A stretch of DNA of 64,000 nucleotides, taken from the NCBI GenBank assembly GCA_001899765.1, contig MKWM01000014.1, positions 1 through 64,000 of the forward strand, in the 5' to 3' direction. This document shows, one piece after another, positions 35,325 through 53,427 of this stretch (the first letter of the stretch is position 1; each line of letters opens with the position of its first letter). This DNA is from Thiobacillus sp. 63-78. Lineage in GTDB: Bacteria; Pseudomonadota; Gammaproteobacteria; Burkholderiales; Thiobacillaceae. The notes under the pieces were generated by a model that saw only the letters and a program-made list of their open reading frames with translations, did no database searches and was not told the DNA's origin. The position numbers and the translations under genes are program-made.

Positions 35325-36200
35325 ATGCTGCCCGCCATCATTGCTTGCACTGCGCTGTGTTGTCTGCTGGCCGGCCTGCCCCCTCAGGCATGGGCGCATT
35401 CCGATGCGTCCGTGTTCGGTGCGCCCGCCGCAGCCGACCATCACGACGATGAGCACGAGCCTGATGAGGCGAAGCCGGGAAAGCTCTACCCGGCCAGGGT
35501 GTCGGTCGATCCGCGCCACATGGTGAATCTGGTCATCAAGATCAACGCCCGCATCGTCAATCTGCGTAACGTGTATGCCGGAAAAAAGGTGAGCCGGGGC
35601 GAGGTGCTCGGCGAGATGGAAAGCGCCGAACTGGAGACGGTGCAGACGACCTATCTGGGCCTGTTTGCCAACATGGATGCCGTCCGGGCGTTTTCCATGT
35701 CGAGCGAGGAGAAGATGATCGATGCGCGCATGAATCTGCTCTGGCGCGGCATGTCGGAAGAGGACATCAAGCATCTGGAAGCCACGCGCCAGCCGCTCAG
35801 ACTGATCAAGATCAAGGCGCCGGCCGCGGGCTACCTGTATAGCGTGAATGTGGTCAACAACCAGATTCTCAACACCGGCGTACAGGGCGGTCAGTACGCG
35901 ACCAGCGGCACCACGATCGCCACGATCGCCAGGCCGGGCGCCATCGTGGTGGAAGCGAGTTTGCCGGTAAGCGATGCGGCGTCGATCAAGTCGGGGCAAT
36001 CCGCCACGGTCTACGTGACCGATCCGGCCAAAGGACGGATGACAGTGACCGCCAGGGTGCAGCGCGTGTATGCCTTTGTGAACCCGGCCAACCAGAGACA
36101 GTGGGTGCGGCTGCAGGTTCTCGGCGAACCTGAACGTCTGGGCCTGCTGAACGGGGTGGTGGCGACAGTCAGCTTTGCAGGGGAGGCGCATGCCCATTAA
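35325..36200 (+). CDS. RND periplasmic adaptor protein, first of two
   Basis: A 291-residue HlyD/CusB-family membrane fusion protein with a signal peptide (residues 1-24, ending AWAHS). A His/Asp/Glu-rich stretch follows (ADHHDDEHEPDE), of the kind that binds metal. The barrel-sandwich and helical hairpin (VYAGKKVSRGEVLGEME, IKAPAAGYLYSVNVV) and a beta-barrel domain come next. It is shorter than most adaptors. It overlaps the second adaptor gene by 11 bp. Together they should link the inner-membrane pump to an outer-membrane channel that is not encoded nearby. Confidence 0.85.
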   Translation: MLPAIIACTALCCLLAGLPPQAWAHSDASVFGAPAAADHHDDEHEPDEAKPGKLYPARVSVDPRHMVNLVIKINARIVNLRNVYAGKKVSRGEVLGEMESAELETVQTTYLGLFANMDAVRAFSMSSEEKMIDARMNLLWRGMSEEDIKHLEATRQPLRLIKIKAPAAGYLYSVNVVNNQILNTGVQGGQYATSGTTIATIARPGAIVVEASLPVSDAASIKSGQSATVYVTDPAKGRMTVTARVQRVYAFVNPANQRQWVRLQVLGEPERLGLLNGVVATVSFAGEAHAH

Positions 36201-37350
36201 GCCGGTGTGGGCGCTTCCCGTGGTGCTGCTTGCGCTGGCCATGCCGGCTCTGGTTCATGCGCATGGCGATTCGGGGGCGTTCAGTCAGAGCGCCGAACAC
36301 AGCCGCGAAGCCAGCGAGGTCAGGCTGCCGCCGGGCGCGCGCGACGCCGGAGACGTCATCATGCTCGCGGCGGTCCGGGCCGATGCCCCGGCCAGACGGC
36401 TGAAAACGTATGGCCAGATCGTGCCCGATGCCGAGGCGGTGCTGGATATCAATACGGTCGTCAGCGGCCAGGTTGTGCAGGTGTTCGTCCGCCCGGGCGA
36501 CAGCGTGAGAAAAGGGCAGCCGATCGTGTCCATTTTCAATCCCGAGTTCATCACGACCCAGAAGGGCTATCTGCAATTCCTGCAGAACGAAGAGCGGCTG
36601 CAGGTTCTGCGCGAAGAGGGACGGCTGCCGGATTATCTCAAGGATGCCAAGGAAAACCTGCGCTGGTGGGGGATGAGCGACCGCCAGATCACCGCGCTGA
36701 TCGACAAGGGGACGGTCGTGGAAAACATCGTCCTCGACGCGCCTGCCGAGGGGTTCGTCACCGACATGTTCGTGCAGCCGGGATCGCTCATCAACGCGGG
36801 CGATCGCACCATGAAACAGTTCGTGGTGATCGGAAAATCGGTGGCGCGCATGGTGTCCGGCAAGCAGTCATTGTGGGTGGAGGGCTATGTCTATGCCGAC
36901 CAGGAAGCGCTGCTGCGGCCCGGCATCAAGGTCGAGGTCATCCTGCCCGGCGGCAAACGGGTGCAGCGCCCGATCGCCCAGGTGGTGCCGGGCATCGACC
37001 CCCGCACACAGCGAGCCCGTTTCCTGCTGGATCTGGGGCTGAACAGCGTGCCGGGAATGGCCAGCGGCCAGACGGTGGAGCTTGAACTCGCGCTGGACGG
37101 GCGGGCGGGCACCTGGGTGCCGCGCCAGTCCGTGCTGGGTCAGAAAGTGGATCCCGTGGTGTACGTGCAGGCCGCGCCCGGCCGTTACCTGCGCACGCCG
37201 GTGACGGTACTGGGCGAAACGGAAGACTGGCTGCGGGTGGCGGGCGTCGATGCGCGCGCCCGGGTGGTGGTCGACGGCAAGATGATTCTGGAAGGGGTGT
37301 ACCGCATGTCGGGCAATCACGCTGCCGCAGGCGATGGCCACCATCACTGA
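36190..37350 (+). CDS. RND periplasmic adaptor protein, second of two (CusB-like)
   Basis: A 386-residue HlyD/CusB-family adaptor with a signal peptide (ending ALVHAHG), His-containing ends (HAHGDSG; the C-terminus is DGHHH) and the family order. A lipoyl-like half (VVSGQVVQVFVRPGDSVRKGQ), hairpin, second half (VLDAPAEGFVTDMFVQPG) and beta-barrel (SLWVEGYVYADQEALLRPG) are visible. AGGGG sits 6 bases before the ATG at 36190. Two adaptors from one operon are unusual for a heavy-metal RND pump and suggest a mixed adaptor ring. Confidence 0.88.
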   Translation: MPIKPVWALPVVLLALAMPALVHAHGDSGAFSQSAEHSREASEVRLPPGARDAGDVIMLAAVRADAPARRLKTYGQIVPDAEAVLDINTVVSGQVVQVFVRPGDSVRKGQPIVSIFNPEFITTQKGYLQFLQNEERLQVLREEGRLPDYLKDAKENLRWWGMSDRQITALIDKGTVVENIVLDAPAEGFVTDMFVQPGSLINAGDRTMKQFVVIGKSVARMVSGKQSLWVEGYVYADQEALLRPGIKVEVILPGGKRVQRPIAQVVPGIDPRTQRARFLLDLGLNSVPGMASGQTVELELALDGRAGTWVPRQSVLGQKVDPVVYVQAAPGRYLRTPVTVLGETEDWLRVAGVDARARVVVDGKMILEGVYRMSGNHAAAGDGHHH

Positions 37351-37365
37351 GGCGGATGAGCGAAG

Positions 37366-40300
37366 ATGTTTGACTGGGCGATCAAGTGGTCTCTTCAAAA
37401 CCGGCTGGCCGTGGTGCTGCTGTATGGGTTGATGGCCGGCGCGTCGATCGTTGCCGCATGGCACATGGCGGTGGATGTGTTCCCGGAATTCGCGCCGCCG
37501 CAGGTGCAGATCCAGACCGAAGTGCCGGGCTACTCGACGAAGGACGTGGAAGGGCTGGTCACCCGGCCGATCGAGATCGTCCTGCAGGGTGCGCCGTATA
37601 TCGATCAGATCCGCTCCAACTCGTCGGTCGGCCTGTCGCGCATCACCATCACATTCAAGTGGGGCATCGATATTTATCGCGCCCGTCAGATCATTCAGGA
37701 GCGCTTGCAACTGGTGCAGGGCCAGTTGCCCGACTCGGCCCTGGCGCCCCAGTTGATGCCGGTCACCTCGGCGGTGAGCTGGCTGCTCAAGTTCGCCCTG
37801 GTCGACTGGTCGGGGGAAAACCGCGAACTTGAATTGCGGACGCTGGTGGACTGGGATATCCGCAATCGGCTGCTGGCCCAGCCGGGCGTCGCGTCGGTGG
37901 TGGCGGTGGGCGGCGGGGTGAAGCAGTACCAGGTGATGCTCGATCCCCTGCGCATGCGCAAGTACGACGTGTCCAGCGAGGACGTGATGCAGGCCCTGCG
38001 CCGCGCCAATCTGGTGGCGCCCGGGGGATTCGTCTATCCCACCCGCGAGGAGGAGTATTTCATTCGCGTCAATGGCCGGGTGGAGACGCTCGGCGACGTG
38101 GCCGGGACATTGGTCGCCATGCGCGACGGTCAGCCGATCCACGTCGAGGATGTGGGAGACGTGCGTTTCGGCAGCGAAGTCAAGCGGGGCGATGGCCAGA
38201 TCTTCGGCGGCCCGGCGGTGATCGGGACCGTTTCCAAGCTGTGGGGCGCGGACACGCTGGAAACCACACACAACGTGGAACAGGCGCTGGCCAATCTGGC
38301 GCGCAGCCTGCCCGCGGATATCCAGCTGATCCCCGACGTATTCCGGCAGGCAAGCTTCATCGAATCCGCCATTGCCAACCTGCGGGGCGCATTGTTCGAT
38401 TCCTCCGTCATCGTCGCGCTGGTGCTGCTGCTGTTCCTGTTCCGCTGGCGTCCCACCGTGATCAGTCTGATCGCCATTCCCGTTTCCCTGATGGCGGGTG
38501 TGCTGGTGCTGTGGCTGCTTGGCATCGGCATCAACGCCCTCACTCTGGGCGGACTGGTGTTCGCCATCGGCGAAGTCGTGGACGACGCCATCATCGACGT
38601 CGAGAATATTCTGCGCCGACTGCGCGAGAACAAGCAGGCGGCGCAGCCTTTGCCCGCGCTGGAGATCATTTACGAAGGCTCGCGCGAGATCCGCAATTCG
38701 GTGGTATTCGCCACCTTCATCATCATCGTGGCCTTCTTGCCGATCTTTTTCCTCCAGGGCATCGAAGGCCGCATCTTCCGGCCGCTGGCGATTTCCTATC
38801 TGGCCGCCATCTCAAGTTCCCTCGTGGTGGCCATCACGCTGGTGCCGGTGTTGAGCTACTACCTCATGGGGCGGCGGCCGCAGCATCAGCGCTATGGCTT
38901 GAGCGCCGTGTCGAACATGCTGCTCAGCCGCTATGCAAAGGTGTTGAAAGTCTGTCTGGACCGGCCTTTGCCCACGACCGTGGTCTCCATACTGATCCTG
39001 GCCGCGGCGATTCTGGTCATTCCGTCCCTGGGCCGATCCTTTATTCCCGCCTTTCACGAGGGCAATCTGGTGATCGCGACCACGCTGATGCCGGGCACCT
39101 CGCTGGAGGAAAATCTGCGCGTGGGCCGCAAGATCGAGCAGTTGATCGGCGACATGCCGGAGGTCGCCAGCTTTGCCCAGCGGGCCGGCCGCTCGCGCCT
39201 GGACGAGGATGCCCAGCCGGTGAATTTCAGCGAATTCGACGTCGCCCTCAAGCCGGGCACCCGCGACGTGCCCGGGGTGATGCAGCGCATCCGCGCTGCG
39301 CTGGCGCAGATTCCCGGCATGTCGGTCAATGTGTCCCAGTTCATCACCCATCGCATGTCGGAGATCCTGTCCGGGGTACGGGCCCAGGTCGCGGTGAAGG
39401 TCTATGGCCAGGATTTTGGCGTGCTGCAGCAGAAACAGCAGGAGATCTACCAGGCGGTGAAAGGCGTCGCGGGCGTGGCGGATTTGCAGATGGAACCGAT
39501 GGTCCTGGTTCCCGGTGTCGATATCCGGGTCAACCGGGCGGTCGCCGCCGCCTATGGGTTCACTCCGGGGGCGGTCGTCACCCAGGTCAGCGCGGCGTTC
39601 AATGGGGTGGCGGTATCCAGGGTTCTGGAGCAGGACCGCGCCTTCGATCTTTTCATGCGCGTGAACGAGGCGTCCCGCAGCGATATCCATCGCCTGGGCG
39701 AGATGCCGCTGGTGGCGCCCGGCGGCGCGGTCGTGCCGCTGCGTGAAGTCGCCGAACTGAAAGTGGTGCAGGAGCCCTACATGATCAATCGCGACGGCGC
39801 CGCGCGCCGCGCGGTGGTGCAGTGGAACACCGAAGGCCGCGATCTTGACAGCGTGGTGCGGGAAGCGCAGAGCCGCATTCGCGACAAGGTGACGCTGCCG
39901 CCTGGCTACAGTATCGAATTCGGCGGCGACTACGAAGGCCAGCAACGGGCATCCCGTACCCTGCTGACGACGTCCGTCGCCGCGATACTGCTGATGTCGG
40001 TCATCATGTTCCAGGCTTTCCGGAGCTGGCCGCTGGTATGTCTGGTCATGCTCAATTTACCGCTGGCCCTGATCGGCGGCGTATTCGCGCTCGCCCTGGC
40101 GGGAGAAACCCTCAACGTGTCCTCGCTGATCGGCATGGTGGCCCTGTTCGGGGTGGCCACCCGCAACAGCCTGCTGCTGATTTCCCGTTATCAGTTCCTG
40201 CTGCGTGCGCACCCCGATCTCCGTGCCGGCGACATCGCCTTGAGCGGGGCGGTGGACCGCCTGGTCCCCATTCTGATGACGGCGTTCACTGCCGCACTGG

Positions 40301-40476
40301 CCGTGATTCCGCTGATTCTGGGCGACCCCACCGGAAAGGAACTGCAGCGGCCGCTGGCCATCGTGCTGCTGGGCGGAATGCTGAGTTCGACCCTGCTCAA
40401 CCTGCTGGTGATCCCGACACTGTTCCGCTGGATGGCCGGCCGCCGTGAAAACAGGCTGGCGGTTGATGGACGCTGA
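37366..40476 (+). CDS. Heavy-metal efflux RND pump, CusA/CzcA family
   Basis: A 1036-residue inner-membrane RND transporter with 12 expected membrane helices in two halves and large periplasmic loops. The first half begins MFDWAIKWSLQNRLAVVLL and has the HME signature VPGYSTKDVEGLVTRPIE. The proton-relay helix reads GGLVFAIGEVVDDAIIDVENIL. That is neither the CzcA form (DFGxxxDGAVVxVEN) nor the CusA form (AIGxxVDAAIVMIEN), so metal specificity (Cu, Zn, Ni or other) cannot be read from it. It lies with two adaptors and a two-component system. No outer-membrane channel gene is present. Confidence 0.9.
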   Translation: MFDWAIKWSLQNRLAVVLLYGLMAGASIVAAWHMAVDVFPEFAPPQVQIQTEVPGYSTKDVEGLVTRPIEIVLQGAPYIDQIRSNSSVGLSRITITFKWGIDIYRARQIIQERLQLVQGQLPDSALAPQLMPVTSAVSWLLKFALVDWSGENRELELRTLVDWDIRNRLLAQPGVASVVAVGGGVKQYQVMLDPLRMRKYDVSSEDVMQALRRANLVAPGGFVYPTREEEYFIRVNGRVETLGDVAGTLVAMRDGQPIHVEDVGDVRFGSEVKRGDGQIFGGPAVIGTVSKLWGADTLETTHNVEQALANLARSLPADIQLIPDVFRQASFIESAIANLRGALFDSSVIVALVLLLFLFRWRPTVISLIAIPVSLMAGVLVLWLLGIGINALTLGGLVFAIGEVVDDAIIDVENILRRLRENKQAAQPLPALEIIYEGSREIRNSVVFATFIIIVAFLPIFFLQGIEGRIFRPLAISYLAAISSSLVVAITLVPVLSYYLMGRRPQHQRYGLSAVSNMLLSRYAKVLKVCLDRPLPTTVVSILILAAAILVIPSLGRSFIPAFHEGNLVIATTLMPGTSLEENLRVGRKIEQLIGDMPEVASFAQRAGRSRLDEDAQPVNFSEFDVALKPGTRDVPGVMQRIRAALAQIPGMSVNVSQFITHRMSEILSGVRAQVAVKVYGQDFGVLQQKQQEIYQAVKGVAGVADLQMEPMVLVPGVDIRVNRAVAAAYGFTPGAVVTQVSAAFNGVAVSRVLEQDRAFDLFMRVNEASRSDIHRLGEMPLVAPGGAVVPLREVAELKVVQEPYMINRDGAARRAVVQWNTEGRDLDSVVREAQSRIRDKVTLPPGYSIEFGGDYEGQQRASRTLLTTSVAAILLMSVIMFQAFRSWPLVCLVMLNLPLALIGGVFALALAGETLNVSSLIGMVALFGVATRNSLLLISRYQFLLRAHPDLRAGDIALSGAVDRLVPILMTAFTAALAVIPLILGDPTGKELQRPLAIVLLGGMLSSTLLNLLVIPTLFRWMAGRRENRLAVDGR

Positions 40477-40556: not shown

Positions 40557-43220
40557 ATGCAGGTGAAAGCTTCCCAAGCCGAACGTGGAATCGGGCCGCC
40601 CGAATCGGGTCAGGCGCGCCCCGGCAGCCTGGCCGGGATCGGAACGATGCTGTGGATCGTGTTCCTGCTGCTGCTGCCGATCCTGCTGTTTGGAAATCTC
40701 TCCCCCCATCTGCTCGCGCAGCGGTTCGTGGAAGTCAGAAGCCACATGCTGATCGAGTCATTCTGCGGCTTCGTGGCGTTGATGATTGCCGGCATGATCC
40801 TGGCGGTGAGCGTGCGGCAGAAGAGCCACGGCGGGGCGCTCTTCGGCCTGGCCTTCCTCTCCATGGGGATCATGGATATCCTGCATGCCTGGTCCAATCC
40901 GGGCCCGGAGCTGAATCATTTCGTCGCCTACCATACCCTGTCCTCCCTGTCCGGGAGCGGGCTGATCCTGGCCGGCATCGTGACGCATATTCTCTCGGAT
41001 CGGAAACACCGGCCCACCCGTGGCGACGTGCTCACCATGGGCGTGGGAGGGGTGATCGTGCTGGCGGCGGCGGTCTTGTACCAGGCGTTCATTCCGAACC
41101 TGCTAGCGGGCGGCTACCCCGAGTTCTCCGGTTTCCTGCCGACCCCCCACAGGGTGCATTACCTGGCCAGCTTTCTTTATGCGCTCGATGCGGTCGCGTT
41201 CTACGGCTATTACCGGCGGTATCGGAAAAGCCTGGCACTGGTGATCGCCAGTCTTCTGATGGTGTTGGCCCAGAGCGCCTATCTGTTCAACTTCTCCAGC
41301 CTGTGGGGCATCATCTGGTGGGGATGGCACGGCGCCAAGATGATGTTCTATCTGGGCGTCATGATCACCGTGTCGGTCGGCTTCCTGCTGGCGCTCAACA
41401 CCATCGAGCGCTCGCGCCATGTGCTGGTGCGCGCCAACCGGCGGCTGCATCGCACCCAGCGCAGGATCAGGAACGTCAACCAGGAACTCAGGATACGCAA
41501 CCGCATGGCGCGCGAGGCGATGACGTCGCCCGATCTCAACAATGCGCTCGATGTGGTATCCAATGCGGTCAATCAGCTGCTGGGCATTCCCTGTGGCGAG
41601 CTGGTCCTGAGCATCCCGGCGGATGAAGTCGATGAATTCGAGCGTCGCATGCCCCATATGCGATCGCATTGGCCCATTCGCGCCAAGGCGTTGAACGCCA
41701 CCTGTTTTGGCCACACCTGCCAACTGGTGCGGGAGTCGGGGGGCAGTTACTACGAGTGTTCTTCCGGGACGGTCGACCAGTCGGTTTGCCTGTCGCTCAC
41801 CGCGAGCGGCCATGAAGTCGGCCATCTGCGGCTGCTCGCGGATGACCGCGAGCACTTGCGCCAGCGCATGGGCCAGTTGCAGGCGCTGGCGGTGGAGATC
41901 GGCACGATCATCAACAATGCGCTGCTTTACCATCGCTGGCTGGATGCCAACGAATTCCGGGCCGCCTTGTTGCGGGTGTCGGCCATGATGACCTCGACCC
42001 TGAATCTTGAACGGGTGCTTGAGTCGGTGTGCCGGGAAAGCGCCGCCCTGCTGGATAGCGACGGGGCGCTGGTCTGGCTTCCCAGCGCGGAAGAACCTGG
42101 GCACTTTACCCTGGCGGCCAGATGGTTTGCCGAGAGCGACAAGCCCTGTACCGCTGAACTGGAGGCCTGGTGCCGCGACGGCCGTTCGTGCGCGCGGCTG
42201 TTGAATACGATAGACGGCCAGTTCCGTCCGCGCGCCCTGCTGAGCCCGGACAGTCCGGCGCTGATGGCTTCCGGGCCGCCACTGGGCTGTCATTGGGGGG
42301 CGATGGCGTTGTTCCCCTTGCTGGATGAAGCGCGCCTGATCGGCGCCATGGTGCTGATACGCAAGGCGCGGGTGCAATTCAGCGAGGCCACGCTGGCCAA
42401 GGGGGAACTGCTTGCCGGCCAGGTCCGTATCGCGATCAATAACGCCCACAGCTACCAGCAATTGTCCGAAATCAACCAGCAGCTCAAACTGTCCGAAGCA
42501 AACAAGATCCGTGCGGAACGCCTGGCGGCGCTGGGCCAGATGGCGGCCTCGGTGGCGCATGAAGTGCGCAATCCGCTGTCGGCCATTACCAACTGTCTGG
42601 CGGTGTTGAAGACGGAACGCCGGATCGACAGCCGAAGCCAGGCGGCCCTGGAAATCATCCAGGACGAGGTGGTGCGGCTGGACAATCTGACGCGCGACTT
42701 CCTCACCTTCGGCAAGCCGCGTGTGATGGCGTACAAGCCGGTGGTGCTGGAAGCGCTTGTTTACAAGGTATGTACGGCCCTGGAACGCCATGTCCAGCAA
42801 CAGGAGCAGATGATCGAAGTGGAAGCGGGCCTCTCGGACAACGCCATGCCCCAGCTGTTCGATGCGGATGGCCTGGAGGTCGTGCTGTGGAATCTCCTGC
42901 TCAACGCGTCGCAGGCCATTCAGGGCCGGGGCCGCGTGTACGCCACGGTGCGTGTCTATCCCGGCTGGTTCCTGCTGGTCGTGGCGGATACGGGCAAGGG
43001 CATTCCGTCCCCGGAGCGCAAACTGGTTTTCGAGCCGTTCTATACCCAGCGCTCGCATGGCGCCGGACTGGGGCTCGCCATTGTGCAGCGCTTCGTGCAG
43101 GAGTGGGGCGGGCGTATCCGCATTGCCAGCCAGCCGGGCCGTGGCACCCGGTTTTACGTGCGCGTGCCCTTGCCCGAAGCGGTCGACGCGGCCATTGACT
43201 GTACGACTGCAGTGGCATGA
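40557..43220 (+). CDS. Membrane sensor histidine kinase with MASE3-like and GAF-like domains
   Basis: An 887-residue kinase. About seven N-terminal membrane helices (residues 30-290) resemble a MASE3 sensor, with the conserved GIMDILHAWSNPGPE segment. Two GAF-like regions follow (about 310-440 and 465-620), then HisKA with phospho-His in SVAHEVRNPLSAITNCL and HATPase with NLLLNASQAI, DTGKGIP and GAGLGLAIV. GGAG precedes the ATG. It overlaps the downstream regulator (ATGA) and lies 80 bp after the pump. The signal may be membrane redox state or metal; neither is shown. Confidence 0.9.
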   Translation: MQVKASQAERGIGPPESGQARPGSLAGIGTMLWIVFLLLLPILLFGNLSPHLLAQRFVEVRSHMLIESFCGFVALMIAGMILAVSVRQKSHGGALFGLAFLSMGIMDILHAWSNPGPELNHFVAYHTLSSLSGSGLILAGIVTHILSDRKHRPTRGDVLTMGVGGVIVLAAAVLYQAFIPNLLAGGYPEFSGFLPTPHRVHYLASFLYALDAVAFYGYYRRYRKSLALVIASLLMVLAQSAYLFNFSSLWGIIWWGWHGAKMMFYLGVMITVSVGFLLALNTIERSRHVLVRANRRLHRTQRRIRNVNQELRIRNRMAREAMTSPDLNNALDVVSNAVNQLLGIPCGELVLSIPADEVDEFERRMPHMRSHWPIRAKALNATCFGHTCQLVRESGGSYYECSSGTVDQSVCLSLTASGHEVGHLRLLADDREHLRQRMGQLQALAVEIGTIINNALLYHRWLDANEFRAALLRVSAMMTSTLNLERVLESVCRESAALLDSDGALVWLPSAEEPGHFTLAARWFAESDKPCTAELEAWCRDGRSCARLLNTIDGQFRPRALLSPDSPALMASGPPLGCHWGAMALFPLLDEARLIGAMVLIRKARVQFSEATLAKGELLAGQVRIAINNAHSYQQLSEINQQLKLSEANKIRAERLAALGQMAASVAHEVRNPLSAITNCLAVLKTERRIDSRSQAALEIIQDEVVRLDNLTRDFLTFGKPRVMAYKPVVLEALVYKVCTALERHVQQQEQMIEVEAGLSDNAMPQLFDADGLEVVLWNLLLNASQAIQGRGRVYATVRVYPGWFLLVVADTGKGIPSPERKLVFEPFYTQRSHGAGLGLAIVQRFVQEWGGRIRIASQPGRGTRFYVRVPLPEAVDAAIDCTTAVA

Positions 43221-44608
43221 GCGGCAAACCTCTTCATATCCTGCTGGTGGACGACCAGAAAAGCCTGCGCCGCAGCCTGTCACTCATGCTGCTCGGCGCC
43301 GGCTTCGACACCAGCGAAGCGGAAAGCGGCAGCCAGGCGCTGGCCATATTGAGCCAGGCTGAATACGATCTGGTGATTACCGATTTGCGTATGGACGATA
43401 TGTCCGGGATCGATCTGCTGCGCGAGATCAAGCAGGTCAAACCCGAGCTGCCGGTGATCCTGATCACGGCCTATGGCAGCATCGAATCGGCTGTCGATGC
43501 CATGCGCCTGGGCGCATTCGATTACCTGACCAAGCCGTTCAGCGAACACGATATCCTGGAAAAGATCCGCGCCAGCCAGACATTGCGGAATTGCGCTGCC
43601 ACCGTGCGGACACGCCCTGCGGCGGCGTGGCGCGAGGCGGAGGACGTCGTGGCCGATACGCCGCAGATGCGCGCCACCCTGATCAAGGCGGAGCGGCTGG
43701 CCGCCACCGACATCAGCGTGCTCATTACCGGCGAGACCGGCACCGGGAAGACCCGCATCGCCCGCCTCATCCACGAGAAAAGCGCGCGCAGCGAACATGC
43801 CTTCGTCAGCATCAATTGCGCCAGCCTGCCGGAACAGCTTCTGGAGAGCGAGCTGTTCGGCCACGTGCGCGGCAGCTTCACCGGCGCGACCGATTCCCGT
43901 GCCGGCCTGTTCGAGGAAGCCGACGCCGGCACCATCTTCCTGGACGAGGTGGATACCCTGTCGCCCACGATGCAGGCCAAGCTGTTGAGCGTACTGCAGG
44001 AGCGGCAGATCCGCCGGGTGGGATCGAACAAGAGCAGACAGGTGGATATCCGGGTGATCTCCGCCACCAATCAGGTGCTCGACAGCCTCATGGAACGCGG
44101 GCATTTCCGTTCCGATCTGTATTTCCGCCTCAACGGCATCCGGCTGCATCTGCCGCCGCTGCGGGAACGGGGCGAGGATCTCATGCGGCTGCTGGCGCGT
44201 TTTCTCGACACCCACAGTGCCAAATACCGGCGCAGCGGACTCAGGCTGACGCCGCGTGCGCTGGCCTGCGTGCAGGCCTATCCTTATCCGGGCAACATCC
44301 GCCAGCTGGAAAACTTCGTGGAACAGATGGTGGTTTTCGCTGACGAGCAGGGCATGATCGATATCAGCGCCCTGCCCGAAGATCTGCTGCAGCATCTGGG
44401 CGGCCTGCCAGAGGCCAATGCCCCCGCCCCGCTGCCGCAAGCGGAAGGCGGCAGCCTGGCCAAGACCGAGCGCATGCTGATCGAATCGGCCTTGCAGCGG
44501 GCGCGGCATATCGGCGAGGCCGCGCGCGAGCTGGGTATCGGCCGCACCACCCTGTGGCGCAAGATGCGCGAATTCAATCTTCAATTCACCCCAGGCCGGC
44601 GCGAGTAA
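43217..44608 (+). CDS. NtrC-family sigma-54-dependent response regulator
   Basis: A 463-residue activator: receiver (1-120, phospho-Asp in VITDLRMDDMSG), AAA+ domain with Walker A GETGTGKTRIARLI, the sigma-54 contact loop GSFTGA, Walker B TIFLDEVDTL, and a C-terminal Fis-type helix-turn-helix (ARELGIGRTTLWRKMREFN). It needs sigma-54 promoters; three good matches lie in this region (35264, 44622, 46267), two with palindromes at a fixed distance. I infer that it controls its own efflux operon and the propeller-Sox cluster. Confidence 0.94.
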   Translation: MSGKPLHILLVDDQKSLRRSLSLMLLGAGFDTSEAESGSQALAILSQAEYDLVITDLRMDDMSGIDLLREIKQVKPELPVILITAYGSIESAVDAMRLGAFDYLTKPFSEHDILEKIRASQTLRNCAATVRTRPAAAWREAEDVVADTPQMRATLIKAERLAATDISVLITGETGTGKTRIARLIHEKSARSEHAFVSINCASLPEQLLESELFGHVRGSFTGATDSRAGLFEEADAGTIFLDEVDTLSPTMQAKLLSVLQERQIRRVGSNKSRQVDIRVISATNQVLDSLMERGHFRSDLYFRLNGIRLHLPPLRERGEDLMRLLARFLDTHSAKYRRSGLRLTPRALACVQAYPYPGNIRQLENFVEQMVVFADEQGMIDISALPEDLLQHLGGLPEANAPAPLPQAEGGSLAKTERMLIESALQRARHIGEAARELGIGRTTLWRKMREFNLQFTPGRRE

Positions 44609-45226: not shown

Positions 45227-45238
45227 TGGACGGGATGC

Positions 45239-45253
45239 GTTCCGGAATGGAAC
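45239..45253. promoter_or_regulatory. GTTCC-N5-GGAAC palindrome upstream of sodC
   Basis: A perfect 5-bp inverted repeat with a 5-bp spacer in the DUF302-sodC gap, the same core as the palindrome at 35184-35204. No sigma-54 or sigma-70 boxes are seen at a fitting distance, so it may be an extra activator site or chance. Confidence 0.4.
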
Positions 45254-45302
45254 AAGCCCGCCGGATACAGCGTTCGAACCCACGATGAACAAGGAGTATT
45301 TG

Positions 45303-46266: not shown

Positions 46267-46283
46267 CTGGCACAGCAAGTGCT
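46267..46283 (+). promoter_or_regulatory. Sigma-54 promoter for the propeller-Sox cluster
   Basis: CTGGCACAGCAAGTGCT has GG (46269-46270) and GC (46281-46282) 12 bp apart, with TGGCAC intact and one mismatch in TTGC. It shares TGGCACAG with the efflux promoter. The predicted start is near 46294. Confidence 0.65.
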
Positions 46284-46437: not shown

Positions 46438-47091
46438 ATGAAATCTAAGGCAACAACGGTATCGGGTGGACTGCTGAAGCGGCGCATCGCTTCTGCACTG
46501 TGCACGGCAGGGCCGATCATTTTCGCATTGGGGCTGCTTGCAATCCCAGCCAGCACGGTGCTGGCGGATGGCAAGGATGGCACCTTCCCGTCTGCCGAAC
46601 AGGTGGGGGGCGAAGTGTTCATCCAGCCGATGGCGGTCGGCACGAAAATGCCGACCGACATCGAGATTTACGACTCGCAAGCGAAAAAAGCCGATTTCGG
46701 CAGCCTGGTGGCGGGCAAACCCACGCTGGTGGTGTTTTTCATCTCCGCGGTACCGGTCTCGGTGGCCCAGTTGAAGAAGACCGAGGAATTCGTGGACAAG
46801 TACGGCCACGGGACCAATGTCGTGTTTGTCAATGCGGACACGATGGGCACGCACCTGATGGGCGGGCCGGCGCAGGCGATTCCTTCCACTGCGGCGACCA
46901 TGCGCCTCATCAAGAAGGAACACAACCTGAAGCGGGATATGTATGTGGCGCCCAACGATGTGCTGAGCCCCAAGGGCGTGTCTACCCGTCTGGGGATTCG
47001 CGGCCTGCCGACCAGCTTCCTGTTGTCGGCCAACGGCACGATCGAAAAGGTCTTCGTCGGTCCGCAGGACTGGAAGAAAGGCGACATCTGA
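46438..47091 (+). CDS. Exported thioredoxin-fold protein lacking the catalytic cysteines
   Basis: A 217-residue secreted protein (signal peptide to about residue 42, ending STVLADG) with a TlpA/peroxiredoxin-like fold. The place of the CxxC site reads FISAVPVS, with Ala104 and Val107 where the cysteines should be, but Pro106 kept. The cis-Pro loop is intact (GLPTSFLLSANGTIEKVF). So it should not do thiol-disulphide exchange; binding, chaperone or metal-delivery roles are possible. It is the first gene of the sigma-54-driven cluster and sits 50 bp before the Tat-exported propeller. Confidence 0.8.
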   Translation: MKSKATTVSGGLLKRRIASALCTAGPIIFALGLLAIPASTVLADGKDGTFPSAEQVGGEVFIQPMAVGTKMPTDIEIYDSQAKKADFGSLVAGKPTLVVFFISAVPVSVAQLKKTEEFVDKYGHGTNVVFVNADTMGTHLMGGPAQAIPSTAATMRLIKKEHNLKRDMYVAPNDVLSPKGVSTRLGIRGLPTSFLLSANGTIEKVFVGPQDWKKGDI

Positions 47092-47141
47092 TTCGGCGCG
47101 AGGCGCCAGCATCAAGCTATACAACGCAAGGAGTTAAATTA

Positions 47142-48608
47142 ATGAGTATTTCCAGAAGGCAGTTCATTCAAGGGTCGCTCGCTGCCGGCATGGCCGGGGC
47201 AGCGGGTGTTTTGGGTTCGGGGAACGCTATGGCCGCTCGTCACGATCCGATCAATGAAGCGCAGGCCGATTTCTTCAAGAAATTCGATCGCAACGTCGTG
47301 CTGCTGCCGAGCAAGTACGGCGGTTACGTGCAGGCGCTCGATCTTGCCGTGCCGGAAACCCTGGCCTGGTACAACTACGGCCTGGCTGGCGTCAACATGC
47401 CCATCCCGCACCACATCGCCGCCTTGCCTTCGGCCGATCCCTACAAGGGGTTCGATTTCTACCAGACCATGCAGCCGCCCGGGACGCCTTACGTCAACGA
47501 GAACTCGCCTGAATGGCGGGATCGTGGCGATTTCAAGATGTTCAAGATGCGCTATGACGGGAGCGGCAAGCAGAACCACATCGAAGTGGTCAGCGACATC
47601 GGCGTGACCACCGGCATGTCGCTGGGGGTGCATGCGTCCATCGGTGTGGGCGAAAACGCCAACAAGTACGTCGCGTTCGCGGATGGTCAGAAGGACATGG
47701 TGCTGATCACCACCATCGACGACAATCCGAAAATCGTCAAGGCCTTCCGTGCCGATTACGATCCCGTCAAGCGGCAGCTTCATATCAGCCATATCTTCCC
47801 CGACGCCACCACGGGCAAGTTCGACTACGTGGGCCGCAAGGGCATGAAGACGACCCATGAGGCGATGCTGGGCGAGGAGTTGATGCCTGCCGACCCGACC
47901 GCGGTGTTCGTGGATGCCTTCACGTGGCACCCGACCCTGCCGTTCGGCGCGATCCTGATTCGCCGTCTCGGCTGCTGTGCGATTGTCGATACGCGCACCT
48001 GGGAAGTGGTGGCGCTGCTTTCCACCGCCAAGGGCGCGCCGGAGAATTTCCCGCTGACCCGGCAACAGGGCTTCACCTGGACCTTCACCGTGCCGTCGGT
48101 GCTCACGCCTTTGCATGAGGCCGGTTTCATTACGAGCGGCGAATATTTCTGCGCCTGCAACAACGTGCTGCAGAACAACATCGCGATCTATCGCGCGACC
48201 GATGAGAATCCGCTCAAATGGAAGAAGGAAGCCTTCGTCGAGGGATTCGGCGACAAGTATCTGCCGCTGCACATGGGTAACGTACCGGATTCGCGTTTTG
48301 CCTACTTCACCATGTGGGCGCGCAAGCCGAACAATGGCTACATCTGCAAGGTGGACACCAAGACCTGGAAGGTGGTCGCCAAGTGGGATACCGGTCCGGA
48401 TCCCCATACCTGCGACTGTTCGGTTGACGGCAAGTACATGACCACGGTGTACAGCGGCAACCAGGGCGGACAGTCCGGTCTGGTGATTCTCAACGTCGAG
48501 ACCGACAAGATCGAGGCCCGTATCGCCGTTCCCGGCGGCATGCACGACCACGTCGTGGTGCCGGAAAGCTGGGAAGGCATGAAGTTCTCGCGCAGCACCT
48601 CGGTGTAA
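47142..48608 (+). CDS. Tat-exported beta-propeller protein, function unknown
   Basis: A 488-residue protein with a twin-arginine signal (SRRQFIQGSLAAGMAGAAGV) and AAGGAG before the ATG. The body is propeller-like, with repeated blade-end patterns (IVDTRTWEVVALL, KVDTKTWKVVAKW, SVDGKYMTTVYSG). It has seven Cys, several paired (LGCCAIV, YFCACNN, HTCDCSVDG), and many His at loop positions (TTHEA, FTWHPTLP, PLHMGN, DPHTC, GGMHDHVVVP). Tat export and this residue set suggest a cofactor, perhaps copper. The layout recalls the propeller half of nitrous oxide reductase, but there is no CuA domain and the similarity may be generic. I cannot assign a function. Confidence 0.7.
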   Translation: MSISRRQFIQGSLAAGMAGAAGVLGSGNAMAARHDPINEAQADFFKKFDRNVVLLPSKYGGYVQALDLAVPETLAWYNYGLAGVNMPIPHHIAALPSADPYKGFDFYQTMQPPGTPYVNENSPEWRDRGDFKMFKMRYDGSGKQNHIEVVSDIGVTTGMSLGVHASIGVGENANKYVAFADGQKDMVLITTIDDNPKIVKAFRADYDPVKRQLHISHIFPDATTGKFDYVGRKGMKTTHEAMLGEELMPADPTAVFVDAFTWHPTLPFGAILIRRLGCCAIVDTRTWEVVALLSTAKGAPENFPLTRQQGFTWTFTVPSVLTPLHEAGFITSGEYFCACNNVLQNNIAIYRATDENPLKWKKEAFVEGFGDKYLPLHMGNVPDSRFAYFTMWARKPNNGYICKVDTKTWKVVAKWDTGPDPHTCDCSVDGKYMTTVYSGNQGGQSGLVILNVETDKIEARIAVPGGMHDHVVVPESWEGMKFSRSTSV

Positions 48609-48693
48609 GGGAACGTTTCGTGAGCCCCGCCGGCGGCATCCCGCCGGCGGGGCCATCCGATGCAAAGATTATTCAAAGAACGGGAAGACGACC

Positions 48694-49206
48694 GTGAAGA
48701 TTCAGGAAATGATCGCGAATACATTCGCCTCGGCCATGCGCTGGATGGCTTGCCTGGGCCTGCTGTCTGCGTTGGGCCTGCCGACTGCGGCGCTGGCGCA
48801 CAGTAACGAATATCTGGCCACCATCAAGGGCGACCACGGCGGTTTGCTGCGCATGGCGGAGATGTACCACTTCGAATTGATGGTGAAGAACGGTGAGGTC
48901 CAGGCATGGGTCACCGACCATGGCGATACGCCCCAGTCAACCCAGGGGGCGGACGCCAGCCTGCGTGTCATCACGGGCACTCAGGCCATGACCGTGAAAT
49001 TGAATCCGGCCGGCGCCAACGAACTGGTGGGAAAGGATTCCCGGATCAGGCCTGCCGCCGGCACCCGGATCATCCTGAGCGTGACCATGAAGGGACAGAA
49101 ACCTTTGCAGGTCCGCTATGTACTGAGCGACTCGAACGCGGACCATGCAGATCACACGGGTCATGCAGATCACGCGGACCACGCGGGCCACGCGGGAAAG
49201 CATTGA
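48694..49206 (+). CDS. Exported protein with a His-rich repeat tail, probable metal binder
   Basis: A 170-residue secreted protein starting with GTG; its signal peptide ends near ALAHS (about residue 37). The domain has HFELMVKNGEVQAWVTDHGD and TVKLNPAGANELVGKD, an all-beta pattern like small metal-handling modules seen beside copper proteins. The last 21 residues are an Asp-His/Gly-His tandem repeat (ADHADHTGH type), made by a repeated DNA unit at about 49138-49197. I infer copper, zinc or nickel binding in the periplasm. It sits 85 bp after the propeller gene. Confidence 0.7.
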   Translation: MKIQEMIANTFASAMRWMACLGLLSALGLPTAALAHSNEYLATIKGDHGGLLRMAEMYHFELMVKNGEVQAWVTDHGDTPQSTQGADASLRVITGTQAMTVKLNPAGANELVGKDSRIRPAAGTRIILSVTMKGQKPLQVRYVLSDSNADHADHTGHADHADHAGHAGKH

Positions 49207-49296
49207 GCCGCGAGCCCGGGATCATGAGATATCTGCGACTGCATGATGGCCTGTGCTTCCCGGAGATTGGCGGCTAGCCGGATGAGGAGGTTCGAC

Positions 49297-50067
49297 ATGC
49301 AGAAGGCACCCCCCGGGCATGCCCGACCCGGCCTGGCCGCGGGCATCGCATGCCTGCTGGCCGGCGTGGCGATGGCGCATACGGCCTTGGCGCAAACGAC
49401 CGTCCCGCACGGCGACAGCCGCGATCGACTGCTTGCGACCAATGCCTGCGTGAAATGCGATCTGGCCGGGGTGGATCTGGCGGGTCTCAATCTCATGGGC
49501 GCTGATTTGTCCCAGGCCGATCTGTCCCGGGCCAATCTTGCCGGCGCCTATCTGATCGGCGCCACGCTGTATCAAGCCAGGCTGACCGGGGCCAACCTGA
49601 GCGGGGCGGTCATCGGCGGGGCCAACCTGAGTGCCGCGGATATGGGCGGCGCCAACCTGACGCGAGTAGTATCGAGCCGGGCCAATCTGAACATGGCCAA
49701 TCTGGCCAGTGCCGATTTTTCCGGGGCCAAACTGGAATATTCCAATATGGAAGGGGCCATTCTGACCGGTGCGAATCTGAGCCGCGCCGATTTGTACGAA
49801 TCCCGCTTCCTGTTCGCGGAGCTGACCAATGTGAATTTCATCGGTGCCAATTTGCACGAGGCCGATTTCAGTCATGCCGAAGTGAACGGAGTGGCCACCG
49901 ATGCGACCACCACTTGTCCCGATTTGAAACCCGGCCCTTGCGATATGCATGCCTTGAGCGAAAGCGGAGAACAGTCCGGCGCCGCACGGCAGCCGCATTT
50001 TGCGGGGGAGGGCGCCGCCTTCCGGGAAAGGCCGTTCCGGTTCGTTCTCACCCTGTACCGGGAGTGA
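49297..50067 (+). CDS. Exported pentapeptide-repeat protein
   Basis: A 256-residue protein with an N-terminal signal (LAAGIACLLAGVAMAHTALAQ), then LLATNACVKCDLAGVDLAG opening about 25 A(D/N)LxX pentapeptides (GADLSQADLSRANLAGAYL and so on) to about residue 205. This forms a right-handed quadrilateral helix. A short Cys-containing tail follows (TTTCPDLKPGPCDM). GAGGAGG lies 7 bases before the ATG. Most pentapeptide proteins are cytosolic, so an exported one within a redox cluster is notable; a scaffold role is a guess. Confidence 0.82.
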   Translation: MQKAPPGHARPGLAAGIACLLAGVAMAHTALAQTTVPHGDSRDRLLATNACVKCDLAGVDLAGLNLMGADLSQADLSRANLAGAYLIGATLYQARLTGANLSGAVIGGANLSAADMGGANLTRVVSSRANLNMANLASADFSGAKLEYSNMEGAILTGANLSRADLYESRFLFAELTNVNFIGANLHEADFSHAEVNGVATDATTTCPDLKPGPCDMHALSESGEQSGAARQPHFAGEGAAFRERPFRFVLTLYRE

Positions 50068-50118
50068 GGGCAAAGTGTCCGTAATTTTGTGTGAATCCAA
50101 ACAGACAGGATAAGACAG

Positions 50119-50490
50119 ATGGAAAAACCCATTGCAATCGTCACGGCAGCCAGCTTGAGCCTGCTGCTCGCCGCCACGTTCATGTCCGCGGCGCGGGCCG
50201 CAGCGCCCGGACCGGAGCCAAGCGGGCAGGAACTCGCCTTCGATAACCGCAAGGGAAATTGTCTGGCCTGTCACGCCATGCCCGGCGATCCCAAAGCGGT
50301 GACCAGCACCAACGTCGCGCCGCCGCTGGTCGGCATGGCGGCGCGTTTTCCCGATCGGAGCAAGCTGTATGGACAGATCTGGGATGCCACGCGCAGCAAC
50401 CCCGACACGGCCATGCCGCCATTCGGCAAGAACGGGATTCTGACCGACACGGAGATCAACAAGGTCGTGGATTACGTCTACGGGCTGTGA
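50119..50490 (+). CDS. soxX: SoxX, monohaem c-type cytochrome of the SoxXA complex
   Basis: SoxXA starts thiosulfate oxidation by joining the sulfur compound to a carrier thiol, passing electrons to c-type cytochromes. The 123-residue protein has a signal peptide (ending AARAA), the SoxX opening GQELAFDNRKGNCLACHAMPG with haem site C48-L-A-C51-H52, and axial Met99 in NPDTAMPPFG. The typical end is ILTDTEINKVVDYVYGL. AGGATAAG precedes the ATG. soxA follows 38 bp later. SoxYZ, SoxB and SoxCD are not in this window. Confidence 0.93.
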   Translation: MEKPIAIVTAASLSLLLAATFMSAARAAAPGPEPSGQELAFDNRKGNCLACHAMPGDPKAVTSTNVAPPLVGMAARFPDRSKLYGQIWDATRSNPDTAMPPFGKNGILTDTEINKVVDYVYGL

Positions 50491-50528
50491 ATGCCCGGCT
50501 GCCATCTGATTCGAGAAGGGAAAGAAAC

Positions 50529-51365
50529 ATGAAACGAGCAACATGGATACTGTCTTGTCTGGGCATGCTGGCTTTCAGCGCCGATGCGATGTCTGTCTCG
50601 CCGGAGCAGGAACGGTTGAAGAGCGTGCAGGCGGTGCAGAAGAAATACCCCGACATCAAGTTCGAGGACTATGTGTATGGCGCACTGGCTTTCAGCGCGG
50701 ATGCCAAGGCGCAATATGACAACATGATGGCGTTCCCGCCGTTCGAGTCCGAGATCGACAAGGGACGCGCATTGTGGGAGACCCCGTTCAGGAACGGCAG
50801 GCATTATGCCGATTGCTTTCCTGGCGGCGGCAAGAACGTGGCCGGAAATTATCCCTACTACGACGAGACCATGAAAAAAGTGGTCACCTTCGAAATGGCG
50901 CTCAACCAGTGCCGTACAAAAAATGGCGAAGCGGCCTACAAGTCGTCCGACATGAATACCATGGGTCTGCTGACCGCGTACGCCCGGACCCTGTCGGACG
51001 GCATGCTCATGAACGTCAAGGTGAAGGGCGATGGCGCGCTGGCGGCCTTCGAATCCGGCCGCCGCTTTTTCTATCAGCGTCGCGGCCAGCTCAATTTTTC
51101 CTGCGCCAGTTGCCATGTAGGCCACGTCGGCGAGATCCTGCGGACCGAGTATCTCTCGATGTTGCCGGGGCAGGCGACGCACTGGCCGGCCTTCCGGGGT
51201 GGGGATTACGCCTTGTTCACGCTGCAGCGGCGTTACTCGGCCTGCAATCAACTGGTGCGCGCGGTACCCATGGAGATCGGCGGGGAGGAGTACAACAACC
51301 TGGAGTACTTCCATTCGTATCTGAGCAATGGTCTGCCGCTCAAAGCATCGGTTTTCAGAAAGTAG
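50529..51365 (+). CDS. soxA: SoxA, c-type cytochrome with Cys-ligated haem
   Basis: The catalytic partner of SoxX. The 278-residue protein has a signal peptide and a single haem site, SC192-A-S-C195-H196, in QLNFSCASCHVGHVG; the first haem of dihaem SoxA types is absent. The family's axial and active-site Cys is present at Cys239 in RRYSACNQLVRAVP. Cysteines in HYADCFPGG and NQCRTKNGE fit the disulphide of monohaem forms. I placed the start at 50529 (AGAAGGGAAAG upstream); the frame is open earlier. The electron acceptor and sulfur carrier are not encoded nearby. Confidence 0.94.
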   Translation: MKRATWILSCLGMLAFSADAMSVSPEQERLKSVQAVQKKYPDIKFEDYVYGALAFSADAKAQYDNMMAFPPFESEIDKGRALWETPFRNGRHYADCFPGGGKNVAGNYPYYDETMKKVVTFEMALNQCRTKNGEAAYKSSDMNTMGLLTAYARTLSDGMLMNVKVKGDGALAAFESGRRFFYQRRGQLNFSCASCHVGHVGEILRTEYLSMLPGQATHWPAFRGGDYALFTLQRRYSACNQLVRAVPMEIGGEEYNNLEYFHSYLSNGLPLKASVFRK

Positions 51366-51393
51366 CGAATTCGGGCATGGTCAGGAGAAAAAA

Positions 51394-51726
51394 ATGAATT
51401 CACGTCGTATTGCAATCGGGTTGCTGGTGTGGGGCGGGCTGGTGATGGGGACGGCCGGACAGGGCGCGCTCGCCGCCGAAGGCGACAGCAGACCGGCCTT
51501 GTCGGCCGAGGCCGCTGAAGCCCTGGCGCGGGCGGAATCCAGCGTGGCGCAGGCGACAGCCAGAAAGGCGTTGTGGACCACCGCCACCAGCGCGCTCGCC
51601 CAGGCCCAGGAAGCCGCCAGAAAAGCGGATAACGCCGCCGTGATGGAGTATGCCGCCGTGGCCAGCGAGCAGGCGTCGCGCGGCATGGCGCAACTCGATT
51701 CACCGCTGACCAACCAGCAGCATTAG
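51394..51726 (+). CDS. soxK: SoxK, SoxXA-binding protein
   Basis: A 110-residue exported protein (signal peptide to about residue 28, GALAAEG) made of Ala-rich amphipathic helix (LSAEAAEALARAESSVAQATARKALW). It follows soxA by 28 bp with AGGAGAAA before its ATG. This size, pattern and position fit the SoxXA-binding protein, which forms SoxXAK and raises activity in some sulfur bacteria. The sequence is low in complexity, so the name rests partly on context. Confidence 0.8.
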   Translation: MNSRRIAIGLLVWGGLVMGTAGQGALAAEGDSRPALSAEAAEALARAESSVAQATARKALWTTATSALAQAQEAARKADNAAVMEYAAVASEQASRGMAQLDSPLTNQQH

Positions 51727-51852: not shown

Positions 51853-52581
51853 TCAGAACTCGTATTCCGCCTGCATCCTGAACGTATTGTCCGGCGTGGC
51901 GTCCGACACGCCGAACAGCCAGGCGGCGTTGTACTTGATGGCATGATGGTGGGCGGTGGCCAGTTTGCCGAAGACGGCCGGCCCCATTTTATGCGACTGG
52001 TTCCGGGAATTTTCCCAGTCGTTCCAGGGACCCATGCCGCCAAAGCCCTGCAGCCCGTATTCGAAGACGGGCAGCCAGCGGTATTTCACCTGCCATTGAT
52101 AGCCGGCCTCGGTCGGGCTGGATACGGCGGCATTGAAGTGCTTCTCGAACAGGAGGTTGCCATTGAGCTGCAGCTTGCCGAATTCGGTCTGGAAGAGCGG
52201 GCCGACCTTCAATTCGACGCCTTCGTCGTGGTCGCGCGGGACTTCGATTTCGGTGATGAAGCCGATATCCACCGGGTATTTCCCGGTTTCGGTGAGCTGG
52301 AATTTGTTCTCCCACTCGAAGGCATCGTACTTGACGCTGTCGCCGCCGGTCTTCGCATACTTCAGATACACCTCGGTGAACCACCAGTCGTTGGCGCCAT
52401 AGCCCACTCCCAGCGAGGCCAGGGACTGACGCGGCGCACTGTCGGCGGTGCCGAATTTGAAGTCGATCTCCTTCTCGCCTTGCTCGACGTTGGGGGTGTA
52501 GACGTAGTCGGCGGGGCCTGCGTGGGCGGATGGCAGACAAAGCATGCCCATCGCAGCCATCAGCACTGCTTTCGATTTCAT
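51853..52581 (-). CDS. Outer-membrane beta-barrel protein near iron permease
   Basis: A 242-residue protein with a signal peptide (ending SAHAGP), alternating amphipathic strands (for example VGYGANDWWFTEVYLKYAK, VKYRWLPVFEYGLQGF) and a C-terminal Phe (MQAEYEF), the outer-membrane insertion mark. I do not recognise a named family. It is the last gene of a probable cupredoxin-FTR1-barrel operon (16-bp gap), so passage of iron or another metal across the outer membrane is a fair guess. It converges with soxK. Confidence 0.75.
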   Translation of the reverse strand: MKSKAVLMAAMGMLCLPSAHAGPADYVYTPNVEQGEKEIDFKFGTADSAPRQSLASLGVGYGANDWWFTEVYLKYAKTGGDSVKYDAFEWENKFQLTETGKYPVDIGFITEIEVPRDHDEGVELKVGPLFQTEFGKLQLNGNLLFEKHFNAAVSSPTEAGYQWQVKYRWLPVFEYGLQGFGGMGPWNDWENSRNQSHKMGPAVFGKLATAHHHAIKYNAAWLFGVSDATPDNTFRMQAEYEF

Positions 52582-52597
52582 GATGTGAGGTGTCCTT

Positions 52598-53422: not shown

Positions 53423-53427
53423 GGGCG

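Follow-up and report, generated by a model that had tools for sequence, protein, structure and literature searches.

Linkage of a dedicated SoxXAK gene set to a thiocyanate dehydrogenase-type gene cluster in Thiobacillus

The stretch of DNA analysed here, referred to as the window, comprises 64,000 nucleotides of contig MKWM01000014.1 (positions 1 to 64,000) of Thiobacillus sp. 63-78 (GCA_001899765.1), a genome of 3.21 Mb in 74 contigs. Between positions 46438 and 51726 it contains an operon of seven + strand genes, separated by gaps of 28-90 bp, in which a homolog of thiocyanate dehydrogenase (TcDH) is accompanied by a copy of soxX, soxA and soxK. The first gene (46438..47091) encodes a Cys-less thioredoxin-like exported protein (PF08534, 26.7 bits, cut-off 26.6) and the second (47142..48608) the TcDH homolog, a Tat-exported copper propeller whose fold is assigned by homology. 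The third (48694..49206) encodes a His-tailed exported protein with a predicted beta-sandwich fold and without a Pfam or NCBIfam match, and the fourth (49297..50067) an exported pentapeptide-repeat protein (PF00805, 1.2e-42). These are followed by SoxX (50119..50490; TIGR04485, 88 bits, cut-off 61), a monohaem cytochrome c with CxxCH and a Met in MPPFG, and by SoxA (50529..51365; TIGR04484, 202 bits, cut-off 110), which is monohaem, keeps its catalytic Cys in an RYSAC motif and belongs to a TcDH-linked clade. The last gene (51394..51726) encodes a protein resembling SoxK or SoxAX-binding protein (SAXB), a label that relies on position and a weak match because its NF052674 score (21.2 bits, 3e-4) lies far below the curated cut-off of 95. 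By family-model scans, SoxX and SoxA are the sole c-type cytochromes found among the seven proteins. A sigma-54 type -24/-12 promoter-like site (TGGCAC-N5-GTGCT, 10 of 11 consensus letters; 46268..46283, + strand) lies 170 bp before the first gene. A preliminary description of the locus, made from the letters alone, had placed seven exported genes on one strand behind a sigma-54 promoter. The gene calls and the promoter-like site bear this out, and export signals were recognized by eye and, for the propeller, by Tat models scoring over their cut-offs (PF10518, 24.0 bits, cut-off 22.7; TIGR01409, 20.9, cut-off 16.7).

A phmmer search of the Protein Data Bank (PDB) with the propeller returned 8q9x (8.5e-75) and 5oex, entitled 'THIOCYANATE DEHYDROGENASE' (1.6e-64), and nothing else of note. 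The alignment to both solved TcDH structures spans residues 42-487 of 488, and 153 of the 437 positions aligned with 5oex, presumably the Thioalkalivibrio enzyme, are identical (35%). Furthermore, the copper ligands and cavity residues that make up the active site in PMC6504805 are identical in the propeller at 13 of 13 positions (here and below, the literature is cited from the portions of each paper available to us). The suspected cofactor enzyme of the preliminary description is accordingly a TcDH homolog, and methanethiol oxidase/SBP56 and nitrous oxide reductase, both considered as identities, were replaced by TcDH after the PDB sequence search. By homology, it is predicted to oxidize thiocyanate to cyanate. 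TcDH of T. thioparus DSM 505 is 98% identical to the protein, and the two stand side by side in the tree, in agreement with the genus placement of the genome. By record title, the clade also includes Thiohalobacter thiocyanaticus, Paracoccus thiocyanatus and SCNpilot genomes. No member of the window TcDH clade was found on a plasmid; only relatives 33% identical, annotated as hypothetical, occur on two Methylocella tundrae plasmid records (NZ_LR536451.1 and NZ_CP139088.1, 304-kb plasmids). In Paracoccus sp. S-4012 the TcDH gene (L028, 10001-11453) was matched in three pieces, perhaps reflecting a broken gene or sequencing errors.

The distribution of the SoxXAK copy was compared across 56 Thiobacillus genomes, 13 of them TcDH-positive and 43 TcDH-negative. 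A SoxA 74-100% identical to that of the window is present in all 13 TcDH-positive genomes and in none of the 43 TcDH-negative ones (a Fisher test of this 13/0/0/43 table takes no account of kinship). The exception among the latter is G076, where a 54-residue SoxA piece and a match to soxK at the end of a contig probably represent a truncated operon. The next-best full-length SoxA in any of the 56 genomes is 63% identical to the window protein, and the other SoxA copies of TcDH-positive genomes reach at most 63% identity to the linked type. With loci assigned to genomes by coordinates, TcDH, the His protein, the pentapeptide-repeat protein, soxX, soxA and soxK share one contig in 12 of the 13 genomes, and in G081 the run from TcDH to soxK is split at contig ends. 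In a tree of 47 SoxA rows (14 linked, with the window counted twice, 18 core and 15 others), the TcDH-linked and the core Thiobacillus SoxA proteins fall into two separate clades, each with 100/99 support; just one of the 18 core rows, that of this genome, comes from a TcDH-positive genome. All 12 Thiobacillus-type SoxA rows, window included, keep one CxxCH and the active Cys of RYxxC, and SoxX of the same set keeps CxxCH and its Met. The RYSAC Cys of SoxA aligns with a Cys of 1h31 that we take to be the haem ligand of the catalytic haem. In addition, all 11 Thiobacillus loci with DNA extending as far as soxA have a homolog of the SoxK-like gene after it, as do L076 and L109. The SoxXAK extension of the TcDH cluster is conserved and dedicated in Thiobacillus.

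Three further observations concern individual Thiobacillus assemblies. The G088 bin holds two diverged TcDH-SoxXAK operons (contigs C101 and C112; L006 and L009), from two strains or a duplication. In L006, from a metagenome-assembled genome (MAG), 2.2 kb separate soxK from the start of a soxY, with an ExbB-like gene and two unassigned ones in between (14320-16881). The T. thioparus-like locus L004 (G081) is labelled Rhizobium sp. B91_maxbin.006; the genome falls in Thiobacillus, and the label looks wrong.

Outside Thiobacillus we considered 19 TcDH genomes, 14 from a peptide-pattern set and five from 369 genomes drawn evenly from the class, six of which, including this one, were TcDH-positive; two weak partial matches within the family but outside the genus (G005 and G033, ~22 bits) were left uncounted. 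Nine of the 19 genomes have sox genes on the TcDH contig at a distance of up to ~17 kb, eight show none in the DNA viewed, and two are undecidable, with TcDH contigs of 9.3 and 3.6 kb. In the betaproteobacterium REEB275 (L014), soxX, soxY and soxZ directly follow TcDH and the His protein, and on another contig of that genome (L102) the first genes are soxA, soxB and one for a PF04143 sulfur transporter (2687-3832), with the pentapeptide gene next. The adjacency of L014 and L102, like that of L026 and L103/L104, is deduced from gene content because no contig-end overlap was found for either. In Rhodoplanes (L100), soxX, soxY and soxA lie ~1 kb from the thioredoxin-like gene in divergent orientation. 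Afipia (L096) and a Hyphomicrobiales MAG (L095) carry soxXYZA ~12 kb upstream of TcDH, Amaricoccus (L097) soxXYZAB ~10-14 kb downstream, Paracoccus thiocyanatus (L101) soxX and soxA ~8-9 kb downstream, Pseudaminobacter (L026) soxX 6-7 kb downstream at a contig end, and MAG WY3 (L107) a soxXAYZB set ~16 kb away. Uniform placement would give 0.16 links against eight seen among 12 determinable genomes, an estimate that takes gene positions to be uniform, depends on a 17-kb limit set after the data were seen and ignores kinship (about six arrangements); in the even draw, which is excluded from it, one of five genomes is sox-linked. The gammaproteobacterium G377, with a TcDH 56% identical to that of the window, carries soxX and soxA ~2.5-3.8 kb upstream of its thioredoxin-TcDH pair on the same strand (L124, 1898-5358), and neither soxYZ nor soxB was found beside TcDH; it is an independent case of the Thiobacillus-like soxXA-TcDH arrangement. 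The propeller-SoxXA association noted in the preliminary description is thus not confined to this genome: gene-neighbourhood comparison recovers it in every TcDH-positive Thiobacillus and again beyond the genus.

Much of the cluster has been described before. Thiohalobacter thiocyanaticus HRh1 and Guyparkeria SCN-R1 have TcDH loci, published in 2019, that resemble the window in a thioredoxin-like gene without the cysteine motif before TcDH, a sigma-54 activator, a membrane GAF kinase and CusA/CusB (PMC6504805), and in strain Hrh1 (locus L016) TcDH is followed, as here, by genes for the His protein and the pentapeptide-repeat protein. By comparison, SoxXA is not near TcDH in HRh1, its SoxA lying more than 600 kb away. 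In the main text of PMC6504805, no word starts with 'soxX' or 'pentapeptide' and one starts with 'soxA'; the T. thioparus contig NZ_KB891333.1, cited there for its cusB pair, is our locus L003. Thioalkalivibrio paradoxus and T. thiocyanoxidans share with the window a Tat-exported copper enzyme, a sigma-54 two-component pair and copper genes; they have copCD, tatA, an ABC transporter and fccAB and, unlike the window, no Cus, thioredoxin-like, His, pentapeptide or SoxXAK genes in that place (PMC5328954, PMC5744179). In Afipia the enzyme has been named thiocyanate desulfurase, and that genome has SOX genes, their position being unstated in the accessible text (PMC8061750). We found no report of SoxXA in a TcDH cluster in the open-licence literature searched, supplements excluded. 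The preliminary description's view of an undescribed system is therefore to be narrowed: the enzyme is a TcDH homolog and its upstream neighbourhood was published in 2019, but the SoxXAK extension, echoed in other lineages, is unreported in the literature searched.

The window SoxA is the third of its genome: contig C34 carries soxXYZAB, and C43 (33442-35307; L002, L031) a further, divergent soxAXYZ set whose SoxA sits on a very long branch. No soxYZ or soxB lies within the TcDH-SoxXAK cluster itself, so the description of SoxXAK as being without SoxYZ and SoxB is true for the locus only, the missing genes sitting on these other contigs. The core set on C34, of the type described as an operon in T. 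thioparus DSM 505 (PMC5248467), encodes the same monohaem types of SoxA and SoxX, 58% and 52% identical to those of the window; unlike it, the window SoxXAK belongs to a separate SoxA clade, lacks soxYZ and soxB, and is confined to genomes with TcDH, apart from one cut contig. The genome hence does contain another, complete sox set, which had been named as a possible full explanation of these genes, but the linked SoxA tracks TcDH and not the core sox genes.

A second thiocyanate route is encoded on contig C19 (156742-163981; L034, L035), where a gene set with an NHase_alpha match and a VCTLCSC motif adjoins an ABC transporter gene; we take these genes to be the thiocyanate hydrolase genes scnABC. 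A cyanase gene lies ~6.5 kb away. The strain has both routes, since scnABC is present besides the TcDH operon. The hydrolase acts on the same pollutant but is unrelated to TcDH in protein and hydrolyses it to carbonyl sulfide. Within the genus (n = 56), with hydrolase-type genes called by the NHase_alpha family, four genomes have TcDH and a hydrolase-type gene, nine TcDH only, nine a hydrolase-type gene only and 34 neither (p 0.47), so that the two are neither mutually exclusive nor linked. Cyanase accompanies the hydrolase in 13 of 13 hydrolase-type Thiobacillus genomes and is uninformative as a marker of TcDH use, being found in five of nine TcDH-only genomes (one by a partial match) versus 14 of 34 with neither (p 0.48). 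In two proteobacterial MAGs (L024, 517-960; L025, 637-1074), a cyanase gene precedes the thioredoxin-TcDH pair by ~360 bp in the same orientation, which supports cyanate as the product of the TcDH clade.

Among 27 TcDH loci, retrieved by exact peptide patterns taken from the window protein and hence biased to close relatives, a thioredoxin-like match precedes TcDH in all 27, some of them cut by contig ends. As the preliminary description had it, the thioredoxin-like domain is devoid of Cys, and so are all 23 domains tested, window included (five of 28 rows were skipped as short or with an unmatched start motif); being Cys-less, it lacks the redox-active CxxC of thioredoxin oxidoreductases. This protein has been called a putative 'zero-valent sulfur acceptor' (PMC6504805); a sulfur-carrying thioredoxin in the TcDH lineage was rejected on the basis of the 23 Cys-less domains. 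In the third protein, the C-terminal His tail that gave it its name varies among homologs, and conservation falls instead on the His that follows the predicted cleavage site and on three inner motifs, HGG, YHxE and TDH: across 22 sequences A35, H36, G49, G50, H59, E61 and D75 are invariant, and Asn replaces the His of HGG in three rows. Its AlphaFold2 model is a beta-sandwich (pLDDT 82), for which Foldseek returned borderline matches to copper proteins in the E range 3e-3 to 1e-2, including CrdA (9ll4; TM 0.65 by target length, E 4.7e-3) and PcoC (E 6.2e-3); the top two matches are archaellum proteins, probably via the signal helix. A role as copper carrier for TcDH would be a guess, one that suits the copper requirement of this enzyme. 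A close form of the His protein occurs in all 13 TcDH-positive Thiobacillus genomes (E 2.7e-59 or better); the family as a TcDH-only marker was rejected, with divergent members (E 4e-9 to 1e-37) in 16 of 43 TcDH-negative genomes. The pentapeptide-repeat gene is found in alpha-, beta- and gammaproteobacterial TcDH loci and is a conserved part of the cluster.

Upstream of the operon, an NtrC-type sigma-54 response regulator (43217..44608, + strand; PF00158 2.7e-67, PF00072) is kept before TcDH in several lineages and is probably the activator of the TcDH operon; the membrane GAF histidine kinase encoded before it (40557..43220, + strand; PF02518, PF00512, PF01590, PF17159) is probably its sensor partner. 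The 400 bp ahead of the thioredoxin-like gene hold a sigma-54-like site of at least nine letters in 14 of 23 other loci (near-copies among them), with 0.06 expected per stretch; the whole window holds 13 such sites, both strands together. Further upstream, a scan of 36190..40476 with PF16576/PF00873 places a CusB-like adaptor at 36190-37350 and a CusA-like RND pump at 37366-40476, both on the + strand and both also part of the published TcDH cluster.

Taken together, we consider it about evenly balanced whether the cluster is a thiocyanate-oxidation operon whose sulfur product passes to the Sox system, the first step being drawn from homology and the transfer to Sox from gene context only. The Tat-exported trinuclear-copper TcDH would, in all likelihood, convert periplasmic thiocyanate and water to cyanate and zero-valent sulfur, yielding two electrons. 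The beta-sandwich protein with its conserved His and the Cus-like pump may handle the copper, and the histidine kinase/NtrC pair may turn the operon on from the sigma-54 promoter. The dedicated monohaem SoxXAK would then attach the sulfur, by oxidative coupling, to the cysteine of SoxY in SoxYZ, supplied in trans from contigs C34 or C43, after which core SoxB and later sulfur-oxidizing enzymes would complete oxidation to sulfate. Electrons from SoxXA, and perhaps from TcDH too, would enter the cytochrome chain. We would guess that the Cys-less thioredoxin-like and pentapeptide-repeat proteins act as structural partners or in maturation and do not carry sulfur. In thiosulfate oxidation, it is SoxXA that links sulfur to SoxYZ (PMC6934394), and transfer from SoxXAK to SoxYZ here is suggested by the dedicated SoxXAK beside TcDH, by SoxYZ beside TcDH in REEB275 (L014), L095, L096, L097 and L107, by the SoxYZ and SoxB genes elsewhere in the genome, and by the abundance of SoxZ (7.1%, with TcDH at 2.5%) in the proteome of Thiohalobacter FOKN1, which comes from a thiocyanate-degrading enrichment (PMC6934394). 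The preliminary suggestion that SoxXA serves a different carrier finds no support: the fuller sox parts near TcDH (L014, L095-L097, L107) hold SoxYZ itself, the genome encodes SoxYZ and SoxB, and the thioredoxin in the cluster has no Cys for sulfur.

Several points weigh against such a transfer of thiocyanate sulfur to Sox. Linkage of sox to TcDH is not obligatory, as the eight unlinked genomes indicate: besides the distant SoxA of Thiohalobacter (G119, the genome of L016), no SoxA over the cut-off occurs in a Nitrospira MAG with TcDH, no sox genes lie near TcDH in the DNA viewed of Paracoccus S-4012 or in the 10 kb viewed on one side, up to a contig edge, in GL140_5, and none occur in the TcDH flanks, the part read, of G302, G464 (20 kb upstream and less than 1 kb downstream), G288 and G366. 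In alphaproteobacteria the sox genes lie ~1-12 kb from TcDH, yet outside its operon. The differing orders and strands of these genes, at distances of up to ~16 kb in WY3, and the eight unlinked genomes favour the reading that sulfur-oxidation genes simply share transfer and regulation. The SoxXAK copy would then oxidize thiosulfate made from zero-valent sulfur and sulfite without a direct link to TcDH; the authors of the FOKN1 study likewise proposed a thiosulfate intermediate, none of which was seen free (PMC6934394). We hold this unlikely, as the Thiobacillus copy is a separate SoxA clade found with TcDH, G076 aside, and is spaced by 28-90 bp behind one promoter-like site. The enzyme itself raises another doubt. 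Purified FOKN1 TcDH failed to oxidize thiocyanate (PMC6934394), identity to the characterized enzyme is just 35%, cyanase is uncorrelated with TcDH in the genus, and TcDH need not be the thiocyanate enzyme of the four Thiobacillus genomes, this one included, that also carry a hydrolase-type gene. The propeller clade might therefore act on another substrate, such as a thiol, polythionate or organic thiocyanate, whose product SoxXA would use. This appears quite improbable, given that all 13 active-site residues are kept, that a protein of TcDH size is overproduced on thiocyanate in HRh1 (PMC6504805), that cyanate builds up in FOKN1, that cyanase adjoins TcDH in L024 and L025, and that the clade extends to the thiocyanate-named genomes and SCNpilot records.

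As the chief alternative, SoxXAK may be the electron acceptor of TcDH and nothing more, standing in for the CytC552 encoded upstream of the TcDH operon in Thioalkalivibrio, with its haems taking the two electrons and the sulfur leaving as zero-valent sulfur or glutathione persulfide. T. paradoxus TcDH reduces a monohaem cytochrome (PMC9456337), the acceptor in FOKN1 is called unknown (PMC6934394), no cytochromes besides SoxX and SoxA were found in the operon, and in G377 soxXA lies by TcDH with no soxYZ or soxB found there. A pure acceptor would have no need of the retained active Cys of SoxA or of the adjoining SoxK-like gene, and REEB275 and several alphaproteobacterial loci link SoxYZ, which carries no haem, so that this arrangement also seems unlikely to us. 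A stricter form of the proposed sulfur transfer to Sox, which we regard as possible but rather doubtful, is that neutrophilic TcDH hands its sulfur to SoxYZ via the dedicated SoxXA with none freed, the Sox carrier being a true co-substrate. If so, this would account for both the inactive isolated neutrophilic enzyme and the abundant SoxYZ in FOKN1, whose relative L016 has a 78% identical TcDH.

These findings bear on two published questions. The sulfur acceptor in the published TcDH clusters is only proposed (PMC6504805), and for the neutrophilic enzyme the role of SoxYZA and the electron acceptor are called unknown by the FOKN1 authors, who urge study of the SoxYZA contribution (PMC6934394); the conserved SoxXAK beside TcDH, together with the sox genes near TcDH in other lineages, provides a concrete candidate. 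It suggests a possible direct route feeding the sulfur of the pollutant thiocyanate into the Sox pathway, and thiocyanate, if the stricter form of the transfer is true, would join thiosulfate as a substrate entering the Sox cycle. Work on mine effluents describes thiocyanate hydrolase in Thiobacillus (PMC5458468, PMC8061750), and the nine of 56 genomes with TcDH and without a detected hydrolase-type gene point to a second, oxidative thiocyanate route in the genus.

Two neighbouring gene groups were also observed. Between the regulator and the operon (44627-45917), genes for a DUF302 protein and a Cu/Zn superoxide dismutase are kept in several Thiobacillus loci. Downstream, on the - strand and convergent with the operon (51853-53751), lie genes for an outer-membrane-like protein, an FTR1 permease and a cupredoxin, a group also kept beside the operon in T. 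thioparus (L003) and in L027.

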